Shown here: in pieces, positions 3,852 to 53,642 of the stretch
Layout of the letters: every line of letters begins with the position of its first letter
Numbering within the stretch: position 1 is the stretch's first letter
Assembly (NCBI RefSeq): GCF_001465795.2
Contig: NZ_CP013659.2
Location: 3,118,501-3,182,500, forward strand
Direction: 5' to 3'
Source: Planococcus rifietoensis
Lineage (GTDB): Bacteria; Bacillota; Bacilli; Bacillales_A; Planococcaceae
Length of the DNA stretch: 64,000 bases
Position numbers and translations under genes: made by a program
Notes under the pieces: generated by a model
What the model was told of the DNA's origin: nothing
What the model saw: only the letters and a program-made list of their open reading frames with translations
Databases searched by the model: none

Positions 3852-3994
3852 AAAAAAGCCTCTTTCAATAGGAAAGAGGCTTCGACCAATTTCTTATCTC
3901 TCAGAATGAATACATCCTGCAGGAATTAGCACCTCTCATGAATATGATGGTTGCTGGACGTCATAGGGCCTGTCCCTCAGTCTCTCTGGATAAG
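3852..3994 (-). ncRNA. SAM-I (S-box) riboswitch with terminator
   Basis: Read on the minus strand, the leader opens with CTTATCCAGAGAGACTGAG and continues with GGCCCTATGA, CCAGCAACC and AGGTGCTAATTCC, closing with GAGAGATAAG that pairs back to the start. These are the conserved blocks of the S-box aptamer (about 3893-3994). An intrinsic terminator follows: a stem of CCTCTTTC with GAAAGAGG and a T-run at about 3852-3882. It precedes the ABC transporter-mmuM operon, so high SAM should stop transcription. Confidence 0.95.
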
Positions 3995-4021
3995 TTATTT
4001 AATTTTTTTAACATATTAACG

Positions 4022-42499: not shown

Positions 42500-42972
42500 A
42501 CGCCTGGCGATGATAGCGAGGGATTTTGTGTAGACGTATTTCTTTGTGCTAATTAAGCATCTTATTGGTCTTCGCCGCCCTGCTTGGGGTTGGCCTCTTG
42601 CCATAAGCCAAGAAGAACACTTGGCTTACGGCTTCGGCTCACCCCTTTACGCTGTGCGGCTGAGAGATTTCGTTGATTCAGGTGCGTTTAAATAGATATG
42701 CTTCTGTACGAGTTGCCGGCTAGCGGGGGAATCGCTTCCCAGGGAATATGAGAAGATAGCGGGAGTTTGCGTGTTGACCTATTTCTGCATTCTACTTTTT
42801 CTTCCTCTTATTATTCGCCGCTCTGCTTTGGGTTGGCCTCTTGCCATAAGCCAGAAAGAACACCTGTCTTACGGCTTCGGCTCGCCCCTTTACGCTGTGC
42901 GACTTGAAGATTTCGTTGAGTCGAGTGCGTTCAGGTGGATCTGCTTCTATAACTAGTTGCCGGCTAGTGGGG
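42500..42972 (+). repeat. left array of the ~246-bp tandem repeat (two units)
   Basis: Unit A runs from about 42500 to 42728 with a degenerate beginning; unit B is 42729-42972 (244 bp). Each carries the ~87-nt hairpin described for the right array (42574-42660 and 42817-42903). Shared blocks include GCTTTGGGTTGGCCTCTTGC, CTTACGGCTTCGGCTC and GTTGCCGGCTAG. The gap between walR and the M23 gene (42348-43335) contains this array and the module that follows; nothing else was seen. Confidence 0.9.
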
Positions 42973-50252: not shown

Positions 50253-51221
50253 TTACTTTCCTTTAGACTCGTGCGCCCGCTTGATCCAGCCCCGGACATC
50301 GAAGCCAAGATCCAAAATTCCGATGATGCTCGTAAACGACTGCAAAGGAAATGCAAGAACCGTCACAACGACCACCACCCAGCGGGGCCAGCCCTCTTGG
50401 TGGATATAGAAATGATAGAACGATACCCCCTGCAAGAACAGCAGGAACTGCAACAGCATCGAGGCATTGACGAAAATCAAATAAGCCATGGTCCCCTGCT
50501 CGAAATCCGACAGCAAGGACACCAAAATGACGATCAAATAATACCACAGTACGCTTTTCGGCAAGCGCATCTCGCGGAACGGCGGGAATTTCGGCACTTC
50601 GATGCCAAGCCGTTTCAAAATCGGCAACAGGATCAACAACAAGATCCACACCGTCGTAAATACCGACAAAATCAATAGCGTCGGCAACAAGGTCTCGAAG
50701 GTCAGCATGAACTGCGCCACAAGCTCCTCATATTCCTGCGTCGATTCCGACCCAAGCCGCTCCAGCCACGTACCGGCCTGTTCATACGAACTGCGCATCG
50801 TCGCCATGAATTCTTCCAGGAAATTAATCCCTAAAAAGGCGATAGCTGCCACGTACTGCACCATCAATGACACCAATAGCACGATACTTGAACCCATAAA
50901 CATGAACAATTTGCTTTTTTTATAATGGATCGACAGCCCAATCATGAGCCCCAGCGGAATGTGGATCAATGCCAAAGGCAAAGACAGCAATCCGCCGATC
51001 AGAAAGCTTAACACGACCCCGACCACTGCGACCAGCGCCGACGCCTTCACCGGATACTTGGCGCTATACCAAGCAATCGGCAATGCCAAAAACAAGGTAC
51101 TGATCAAACTCAGCACCGGTACATATACAGAAATAGCCAATAGGACGGCAAACAGCGCCGTCATCATGGCTCCATTCGTCAACTGACGTGTCTTTTGGTT
51201 AGGCATATCTGCGTTTTTCAT
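50253..51221 (-). CDS. yybS: DUF2232 membrane protein (YybS)
   Basis: A 322-residue protein with about eight hydrophobic segments. The position immediately upstream of gdpP and the N-terminal segment TNGAMMTALFAVLLAISVYV fit the YybS/DUF2232 family, whose fold resembles the S components of ECF importers. Its role is unknown. It begins the yybS-gdpP-rplI-dnaB operon; the ribosome site (GAAAGAAG) is weak, and a second ATG lies five codons in. Confidence 0.88.
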   Translation of the reverse strand: MKNADMPNQKTRQLTNGAMMTALFAVLLAISVYVPVLSLISTLFLALPIAWYSAKYPVKASALVAVVGVVLSFLIGGLLSLPLALIHIPLGLMIGLSIHYKKSKLFMFMGSSIVLLVSLMVQYVAAIAFLGINFLEEFMATMRSSYEQAGTWLERLGSESTQEYEELVAQFMLTFETLLPTLLILSVFTTVWILLLILLPILKRLGIEVPKFPPFREMRLPKSVLWYYLIVILVSLLSDFEQGTMAYLIFVNASMLLQFLLFLQGVSFYHFYIHQEGWPRWVVVVVTVLAFPLQSFTSIIGILDLGFDVRGWIKRAHESKGK

Positions 51222-51795
51222 CTTCTTTCGGGTTTATTTCATCCGTATAATTGTACCATGATTCAATCTCCCGAACAAAAAAGGGAGGTTGCCTCACTGT
51301 ACATCTATCGACCCGTTTCGAGAAGAAAAAAGTTCCTGCCCTCTGGCAATAGCCGTCTATAGAAAATCATTATCGCTGATTCGACAGAGGATGGAAATAG
51401 TAGATGGAAATTAAAATGTGGGAATCGCTTCCTGGATATGCTTGAAGAAAATAGTGAGAGTTTACGTGTTGAAGTGTTTCAGCATTCTATTTGTGCTTCA
51501 TCTTACGCTTCACCGCCCGGCTTTGGGTTGGCCTCTGGCAGTAAGCCAAGAAGAACACTTGTCTTACTGCTTCGGCTCACCCCTTTACGCTGGGCGGCTT
51601 GAAGATTTCATTGATGAGGGTGCGTTTAAATAGATCTGCTTCTGTAGGTGGTTGCCGGCTAGTGGGGGAATCGCTTCCCGGGACAAGGTTGAAGAAGAAA
51701 GTGAGAGTTTGCGTGTCGAAGCATTTCAGTATTCTACTTGTGCTTTAGCTTATTATTCGCCGCCCTGCTTTGGGTTGGCCTCTTGCCATAAGCCA

Positions 51796-51905
51796 ATGAA
51801 CTAGCGAAAGGAAGTTGAGTCATTTCATTGGCGACGCATCTGCGTAGCAGATGTGGGAGCAAGGTGTTTGAGGTGATGCTTGAATAAACTTTTTATCTTC
51901 GGCAT
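51796..51905 (+). repeat. dispersed hairpin repeat R3 inserted in tandem-repeat unit 2
   Basis: It replaces the apical part of the unit-2 hairpin. It has inverted ends CCAATGAA / TTCATTGG, then GCGACGCATCTGCG with AGCAGATG (a small hairpin), GGGAGCAAGG and GATGCTTGAATAAAC, followed by TTTTTATCTTCGGCAT. These blocks match the copy at 36510-36640 in order. Confidence 0.65.
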
Positions 51906-52090
51906 CGGCTCACCCTTGGCGCTCGGGGACTTAGTGATTTCATTGATTTGGGGCGAGGTTAATCTGAGCTACTTCTGTAAAAGTTGCCGGCTAGTGGGAG
52001 AATCGCTTCCCGGGATAAGTTTGGAGCAGCTAATGAGAGTTTAGGTGTTGAAGTGCTTCAGCATGCTGTTCATATTTTATCTTACTATTC

Positions 52091-52177
52091 GCCGCTCTGC
52101 TTTGGGTCGGCCTCTGGCAGTAAGCCAAGAAGGACACTTGTCTTACTGCTTCGGCTCACCCCTTTGCGCTGGGCGGC
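52091..52177 (+). ncRNA. candidate structured element: ~87-nt hairpin of the tandem repeat (unit 3 as example)
   Basis: Outer arms GCCGCTC / GGGCGGC enclose GGG and CACCC arms and then a long inner stem in which GCAGTAAG pairs with CTTACTGC around a loop near AAGGACA. Equivalent hairpins are at 51511-51598, 52337-52422, 52583-52668, 52828-52914, 42574-42660 and 42817-42903. Other units read GCCATAAG / CTTACGGC in the inner stem, so both arms changed together. No promoter or terminator specific to it was found, and the transcribed strand is unknown. Confidence 0.5.
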
Positions 52178-53077
52178 TTGAAGATTTCATTGAATGGGGG
52201 GCGTTTAAGTAGATTTGCTTCTGTACGAGTTGCCGGCTAGTGGGGAAATCGCTTCCCGGGATAAGTTTGAAGTAGATAGTGAGAGTTTAGGTGTTGAAGT
52301 GCTTCAGCATGCTATTCATATTTCATCTTATTATTCGCCGCCCTGCTTTGGGTTGACCTCTTGCCATAAGCCAGGAAGAACGCCTGTCTTACGGCATCGG
52401 CTCACCCTTGGCGCTGGGCGGCTTGGTGATTTCATTGATTGAAGTGTGTTTAAGTAGATTTGCCTCTTTATTTAGTTGCCGGCTAGCAGAGAATCGCCTC
52501 CCGGGATAAGGTTGAAGTAGATAGTGAGAGTTTAGGTGTTGAAGTGCTTCAACATGCTATTCATATTTTCATCTTGTTATTCGCCGCCCTGCTTTGGGTT
52601 GACCTCCTGCCATAAGCCAGGAAGAACGCCTGTCTTACGGCATCGGCTCACCCTTGGCGCTGGGCGGCTTGGTGATTTCATTGATTGAAGTGTGTTTAAG
52701 TAGATTTGCCTCTTTATTTAGTTGCCGGCTAGCAGAGAATCGCCTCCCGGGATAAGGTTGAAGTAGATAGTGAGAGTTTAGGTGTTGAAGTGCTTCAGCA
52801 TGCTATTCATATTTCATCTTATTATTCGCCACCCTGCTTTGGGTTGGCCTCTGGCAGTAAGCCAAGAAGGACACTTGTCTTACTGCTTCGGCTCACCCCT
52901 TTGCGCTGGGCGGCTTGAAGATTTCATTGAATGGGGGGCGTTTAAGTAGATTTGCTTCTGTACGAGTTGCCGGCTAGTGGGGAAATCGCTTCCCTGGATG
53001 CAGTGTCTGGCACGTTGGTGGATTAGAACTAACTAGCCTCTCTAAATCAAAGATGACTTCAGCTGAAAAACAGGAAG

Positions 53078-53290
53078 CATTTCCACATTTTCTGTCGAGT
53101 GAACAGAAAAAAATTCCTTCCCCTCTAAAACTGGAGACGGAGTGAAAGGGGGCTGACGCCTGTGGGACCGTGCGGGCTGGCGAGACAAACGTGGCGCGCA
53201 CTTTGCGGCACGTTGGCTCAACACCCGCCCCACGGCAAGCAGCCCCCTGAAACGAAGTCGAAAAGCGGAAGCTTTTCCAATCACTTCTTT
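53078..53290 (+). repeat. GC-rich module following the right array
   Basis: Contains CTTCCCCTCTAAAACTGGAG, GACGGAGTGAAAGGGGGCTG, GCGGGCTGGCGAGACAAACG, GGCTCAACACCCGCCCCACG and CCCCCTGAAACGAAGTCG. It is the second copy of the module at 43069-43280 and again directly follows a repeat array. Several blocks are mutually complementary (GGGGGCTG with CAGCCCCC), so the module could fold. Confidence 0.85.
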
Positions 53291-53367
53291 CTCCATTCCC
53301 TCCCTCCAGTTACAATCTTTACGATGTAATCTTAACTTTTCCAATACAGTCAACTTCCCAAAGCATA

Positions 53368-53398
53368 TAAAAAAGAGGCCGGTTTCCCGGCCTCTTTG
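53368..53398 (-). terminator. intrinsic terminator of the rpsF-ssb-rpsR operon
   Basis: AAAGAGGCCGG and CCGGCCTCTTT form a perfect stem around a short loop, followed by T residues on the minus strand. Confidence 0.9.
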
Positions 53399-53405
53399 GA
53401 CAATC

Positions 53406-53642
53406 TTATTTTTCTTCCGCTACGAACGGTAGAAGTGCCATGATACGAGCGCGTTTAACTGCAATTGTCAAACGACGTTGCCATTTAGCGCTTGTGCCCG
53501 TAACACGACGTGGCAAAATTTTGCCTCGCTCAGAAATGAATTTCTTAAGCAAATCAGTGTCTTTGTAGTCGATGCGTGTAATGTTGTTTGAAGTGAAATA
53601 ACAAACCTTTTTACGCTTCTTGCCTCCGCGACGTGGTGCCAT
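53406..53642 (-). CDS. rpsR: 30S ribosomal protein S18
   Basis: A 78-residue protein with the family core [20 protein letters not shown] and the basic C-terminus [18 protein letters not shown] basic [12 protein letters not shown] leader precedes it. It partners S6 on the platform of the 30S subunit. Last gene of the operon, 53 bp after ssb. Confidence 0.98.

Follow-up and report, generated by a model that had tools for sequence, protein, structure and literature searches.

The array of ~246-bp units between yybS and rpsR in Planococcus rifietoensis is best explained as one member of a new family of interspersed palindromic repeats in the Planococcaceae, REP/BIME- or MITE-like, which would have spread as DNA and been amplified locally; the probability of this reading is put at roughly 0.57. 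The family is seemingly undescribed and is unusual in its large, conserved hairpin. Its copies are dispersed, occupy gaps past the terminators of genes and conserve their fold above background; orthologous sites carry changing numbers of units, and in one other genus the hairpins are part of a dispersed element bearing terminal inverted repeats.

Architecture and distribution of the hairpin family

In the window, which is the whole 64,000-nucleotide stretch of DNA that was analysed, six units run head-to-tail on the plus strand from 51420 to 52993 with a period of ~246 bp, as had been described, and are enclosed by seven boundary motifs with starts at 51420, 51664, 51996, 52242, 52489, 52735 and 52979. 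The units span 51420-51663, 51664-51995, 51996-52241, 52242-52488, 52489-52734 and 52735-52978, and the seventh motif (52979-52993, plus strand) closes the array. Each begins with a palindromic boundary motif that is conserved, and a spacer and an imperfect hairpin of 86-87 nt make up the rest, the hairpins being placed at 51512-51598, 51759-51930, 52091-52177, 52337-52422, 52583-52668 and 52828-52914 on the minus strand, which is the strand with the better consensus fold. The hairpin is intact in five of the six units; in unit 2 its apical loop is interrupted by ~100 nt (about 51797-51899). Identity between units is 86-90% at paired positions and 88-89% in the boundary motif, and falls to 61-74% in the spacers; these inter-unit spacers are homologous, unlike the unique spacers of a CRISPR array. 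Genome-wide there are 42 occurrences of the pattern GGGRAATCGCTTCC, every one of them at or within ~60 bp of a unit match.

The ~100-nt insert has a hairpin of its own (GCATCTGCGTAGCAGATG) and is found in apical loops at window positions 51797-51899 and at loci L030, L042, L053 and L171. Six copies were found by script among the loci examined, with the copy in L053 added by reading, and the insert looks as though it were targeting hairpin tips. At a further locus, L259, an insert with GCATCTGCGTAGCAGATG adjoins sequence of a second hairpin family.

The second family is a dispersed element of another kind (AGGGGGCTGACGCC...CAGCCCCCT), also folding into a hairpin, and has a copy in the window on the plus strand (53147-53248, arms 53147-53166 and 53229-53248), separated from the array by a tail of ~150 nt (52994-53146, assigned to neither strand) that is partly alignable between arrays. 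A string search recognises the element after 19 of the 25 arrays of the 246-bp type that have a complete last unit. The preliminary description had the six units filling the yybS-rpsR gap; they take up most of the gap between the minus-strand ORFs 50253-51221 and 53406-53642, and the second element occupies part of the rest. An intrinsic-terminator-like site (53372-53397, minus strand) lies directly 3' of ORF 53406-53642, ahead of the element. A second array of the same family, with two units, is located at 42558-42967 (plus strand; hairpins 42574-42660 and 42817-42903), and the eight units mentioned earlier are the six plus these two.

That this array is singular is not borne out. Two covariance models were searched, a first one trained on 62 of the genome's own hairpins and a broader one. 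At E 0.01 the broader model detects 81 hairpins, which form 43 clusters in the 3.5-Mb genome, 150 of 1229 first-look candidates having been scored for this count. The 62 were collected by profile search, where a regular-expression search had given 23: 63 hairpins were extracted, 62 of them 85-87 nt long, and the remaining 57-nt fragment was omitted. Hairpins of relatives measure ~79-98 nt, with a few longer. Besides the 246-bp type, a second array type with a period of ~216 bp is present in this genome, and periods of ~150 and 208 are seen in the genomes G008 and G082. Copies outside this genome are plentiful. Under stringent filters, which sacrifice weak matches, and with 12-17 candidates scored per genome, the covariance model has matches in 81 of 250 Planococcaceae genomes. 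All 46 genomes searched from the genus are among them, and the matches extend to 5 of 19 genera (Planococcus and those labelled g3, g5, g11 and g12). Searched in the same manner, the overlapping order set gives 86 of 261 genomes and a sample of the class 16 of 348, all 16 within the Planococcaceae. The exact core pattern occurs, among the matches listed, in Planococcus citreus, P. maritimus, P. maitriensis and other Planococcus.

In one genome of another genus (G221, loci L278-L297), the hairpins often occur as inverted pairs, and two inverted hairpins are carried by a dispersed element of ~500 bp that is found at several loci and ends in 13-bp terminal inverted repeats (TATATATGTTGAA/TTCAACATATATA). 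A 12-nt pattern for these ends has 42 sites in that genome, and its reversed control has 0. Among the 42 sites no two exact ends were seen to face each other at a distance of 1-2 kb, as would mark an autonomous partner, and the element ends that were read establish no target-site duplication.

The preliminary description knew no family with this layout, and no Rfam family covers the hairpin in the window at gathering cut-off. Relaxing the threshold to E 5 over 51300-53400 yields three matches, all below their own cut-offs, of which MIAT_exon5_2 (E 3.8) touches unit 4; in relatives, where 18 loci were scanned at E 0.5, no match falls on the hairpins. Among the hits listed from open-licence papers, judged by title and start of abstract, none describes the hairpin family. 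Known RNAs recognised along the way are a SAM riboswitch at window positions 3891-3996 (minus strand, 86.2 bits) and Bacillaceae-1 RNA (RF01690), which lies ~0.9 and 1.4 kb from hairpins of the genome G236 (L238 2493-2560 and L214 2995-3060).

Genomic setting and turnover of the sites

The arrays are extragenic: none of the 43 clusters of this genome, and none of 40 in G024 and G008 together, lies inside a called gene. Neighbouring genes were taken from codon-scored calls, with counts that are unchanged at a stricter cut-off; these replaced longest-ORF calls (20 (-,-), 13 (+,-), 9 (+,+), 0 divergent and one undecided). Beside the window array the codon-scored caller misses rpsR and takes the next gene, which is on the same strand. 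Relative to the plus-strand hairpin, the neighbours in this genome are (-,-) in 19 cases, (+,-) in 15, (+,+) in 8 and (-,+) in 1, this lone divergent call (L263) resting on a weak 246-aa gene. In the same order, 20 loci from each of two further genomes give 9, 3, 6 and 2 (G024) and 5, 7, 8 and 0 (G008), from 43 and 41 hairpin matches, respectively. In all, 3 of 83 clusters lie between divergent genes. In a background drawn from this genome only, 16 of the 61 gaps that have no array and measure at least 80 bp are divergent (p 1e-4), as are 6 of 36 when the minimum is set at 150 bp (p 0.02) and 1 of 12 when it is set at 300 bp (p 0.4); avoidance of divergent gaps depends on the gap-length comparison and is at most suggestive.

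The neighbouring genes mostly have terminators of their own before the element is reached, as seen for 26 of 34 right (-) neighbours and 19 of 23 left (+) neighbours, where base-shuffled sequence gives 1.1 and 0.9. A sigma-70 scan of 51200-53420 shows no promoter excess (1 found, 2.1 expected). An element of the 3'-UTR with constant strand was considered and rejected: this genome has an uneven split of co-directional gaps (19 vs 8, p 0.05), and G008 with G024 an even one (14 vs 14).

All 13 clade genomes read at the rpsR site have an array there, with between 1 and 6 units, and the gap in seven other members of the genus where it is readable measures ~142-320 bp and has no unit. The 20 genomes fetched for this comparison comprise 12 of the clade, with the member G040 not included, and 8 others, of which L065 is without a yybS match and so falls outside the count. 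In two of the other genus members (L059 and L063), the unit-less gap has a different repeat-like stretch (CTAGACTTCAGC/CCAGACTCCAGC ... GCTTCCGCTTTTC). Other arrays, in loci chosen for holding a hairpin, have orthologues with the same or a different unit number, and the number thus varies at orthologous sites in the way of VNTR or MIRU loci. Mean identity between units is 83-85% within one array, 79% at the same locus in other species and 72% between loci, an order that points to old sites with local turnover. One site in P. citreus has no unit and keeps the boundary motif, which reads as a deletion scar; at the sites read for the 246-bp element, neither a clean empty site nor a target duplication was seen. 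As the same sites have differing unit numbers in related species, they offer a natural system in which selection on a fold can be set against template-switch mutation, and the arrays are possible markers for strain typing.

Conservation of the fold and its competing explanations

When the 62 own hairpins are aligned without structure (alignment A1), standard pairs fill 93.6% of 1788 cells and two-sided change is seen in 15 of the 29 pairs. None of 500 shuffles reaches the observed pairing, and sliding the partner destroys it. As such shuffles ignore relatedness, a null that follows the tree was built on the model of R-scape. Against it, 1 of 29 pairs passes at E<0.05 among own copies only; 4 of 29 pass in a set of 111 hairpins from several genera aligned without structure, and 6 of 29 in the 78 hairpins fitted to the model (alignment A3). 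A3 holds matches at E 1e-6, a cut-off set to exclude weak reverse-strand matches, and the 111 are the distinct sequences of >=78 nt from A1 and A3. No non-structural column pair, tested where columns are at least 4 apart, passes in any of the three sets. Covariation above phylogenetic background is accordingly found with relatives, while the copies of this genome give the single pair.

The arms quoted in the preliminary description are there in the sequence. The claim that both arms change together is correct for the apical change from A-T to G-C and the inner change from A-T to C-G, both of which are two-sided; it overlooked that GCCATAAG/CTTACGGC includes an A.C mismatch (columns 30/56 of A1), present in 20 of 62 own hairpins and read as G.U on the minus strand. 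Mismatches and loops are themselves fixed over five genera, with C.T in 105 of 111 hairpins, T at column 23 in 111 of 111 and NTC in 94 of 111. The earlier argument against a random satellite, and for a fold that is conserved, is supported by tree-based covariation with relatives, by stems that are more conserved than spacers, by the fixed mismatches and by dispersal. Part of the paired change may come from template switching, a point absent from that argument.

A real, if doubtful, possibility is that the minus strand encodes a structured non-coding or cis-acting RNA in many copies, with selection acting on the RNA. The consensus fold favours this strand for the hairpin (-30.6 vs -14.8 kcal/mol) and for the whole unit (-32.9 vs -18.8 kcal/mol), an asymmetry that counts against the DNA-repeat reading in that it suits an RNA too. 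Other strand signals are likewise in its favour: helix 3 has 49 G.U cells on the minus strand vs 15 on the plus strand of 1330 (21 of the 49 at one pair), the conserved unpaired residues of the minus strand are purines (internal loop NRRA/GAN and an A.G mismatch in 105 of 111), the minus-strand loop of the boundary palindrome matches GNRA at 176 of 201 sites (GCGA at 157), and in 34 of the 43 clusters of this genome the minus-strand hairpin is downstream of a same-strand gene. However, the orientation excess of this genome is gone in G008 and G024, as given above, and individual own hairpins show no strand preference (31 of 62), with 40 of 49 in other genomes favouring minus. In the outer helix G.U cells are shared about evenly by the two strands (29 plus, 33 minus). 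Pair 19-66 leans to the plus strand, with a G.U on that strand in 68 of 111 hairpins, and in the boundary palindrome plus-strand G.U cells lead by 105 vs 68. For the second hairpin element it is the plus strand that gives the better fold (-56.9 vs -44.1). The lack of promoter excess in the sigma-70 scan and the terminators that lie before the arrays also stand against the RNA reading. A specific form of product, namely a minus-strand, Planococcaceae-specific structured RNA or folded ssDNA issued by dozens of dispersed arrays and acting in trans via copy number, with each unit contributing two modules (the hairpin with its purine internal loop and a GNRA-like boundary hairpin), is unlikely.

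That the paired changes are mostly mutational, with template switching at quasi-palindromes rewriting both arms under little or no selection on the fold, is rather improbable as a full account. Template switching has been proposed as maker and maintainer of hairpins (PMC8794818). Four pairs reach significance when the alignment is made without structure, and three of them have ratios of both-sided to one-sided change per branch (14/3, 9/4 and 9/2) that would suit it; the fourth has 10 both-sided and 12 one-sided changes, however, and all 29 pairs together have 93 vs 262. Such repair would also erase mismatches and internal loops, yet these keep their places in five genera and argue that template switching is not the whole story, and the difference in identity between stems and spacers is likewise unfavourable to it.

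The predominance of gene 3' end gaps among array sites, together with weak sites resembling terminators where the plus-strand hairpins of units 4 and 5 end (5 in the region vs 2.9 expected in a consensus scan), could suggest that the hairpins serve neighbouring mRNAs as reserve terminators or by stabilising their 3' ends. This is very improbable, as the genes' own terminators precede the element, only ATTTCATTG-like sequence and no long T-run follows the hairpin consensus, and orientation to genes is not constant between genomes. A random satellite, i.e. a drifting tandem duplication without any selected element, would account for unit numbers that differ between species and for the greater likeness of units in one array, and is hardly credible in view of the dispersal to 43 places, the covariation with relatives, the uneven conservation inside the unit and the structured copies dispersed in other genera.

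Proposed mode of spread and comparison with known systems

For the hairpin family as mobile palindromic DNA, we infer the following mode of spread. The conserved core would be the long imperfect hairpin with its fixed internal loops, with which lineage-specific surrounding DNA would co-travel. A putative trans-acting recombinase or transposase recognising the folded strand would spread copies as DNA, and these copies may then multiply in place through recombination or slippage in the manner of a minisatellite. Selection for recognition would keep the paired changes, and template switching probably helps. No partner gene was found for the family: a Y1 transposase (PF01797) is present in 15 of the 20 genomes searched and absent at E 1e-5 from G013, G024, G027, G033 and G221. 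The own copy, at 2169474, is ~21 kb from the nearest hairpin, with no hairpin match in 2148184-2270032, and is thus not flanked by the repeat in the manner of REPIN/RAYT systems. Most of what is described of palindromic interspersed repeats comes from Proteobacteria. The present family is Gram-positive, its hairpin is much larger and conserved, it lacks a tag, and no tyrosine transposase was found next to it, which raises the question of the spreading agent.

Several known systems share features with the family. Among Firmicutes, bcr1 (167 bp), Bhal-1 (74 bp) and other stem-loop families are similarly short, dispersed, intergenic and able to fold (PMC2267715); they differ in having been described in other genera. 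MITEs bearing terminal inverted repeats resemble the ~500-bp dispersed element of G221 with its 13-bp termini, whereas the 246-bp arrays of the window are, by eye, without such ends. The MIRU-VNTR loci of Mycobacterium tuberculosis, compared by partial description, are also interspersed tandem units of variable number; the Planococcaceae family differs in its longer units and in a hairpin conserved over five genera.

There is also a likeness in kind to REP, BIME and REPIN sequences (PMC3733652 and PMC3116915): imperfect palindromes in many copies outside genes, sited for the most part where the flanking genes run in one direction or converge, paired in inverted orientation or clustered and tandemly reiterated with flanking DNA. 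Inverted pairs of the REPIN type are found in G221, and the window genome has direct tandem arrays. The REP palindrome, according to the same sources, is 20-40 bp, in contrast to the ~80-98 nt hairpin of the Planococcaceae, which also lacks a conserved GTAG or CGTC tag: on the plus strand, GTAG or GGAG lies within 12 nt of 19 of the 62 own hairpins and of 1 of the 48 from other genomes, on the minus strand of 0, and CGTC is found for 0. Families with GTAG are reported from Proteobacteria, Cyanobacteria, Chloroflexi and PVC in PMC3733652, from the main text of which the word 'Firmicutes' is absent. Repeats linked to RAYTs differ again, as no Y1 transposase is adjacent here and none was found in some hairpin-rich genomes. 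Membership in REP/RAYT is rejected, as size, tag and linked Y1 transposase all speak against it, and the hairpins are therefore filed as a new family of the general REP, BIME or MITE kind, occurring as extragenic palindromes in singles, tandem clusters or inverted pairs.
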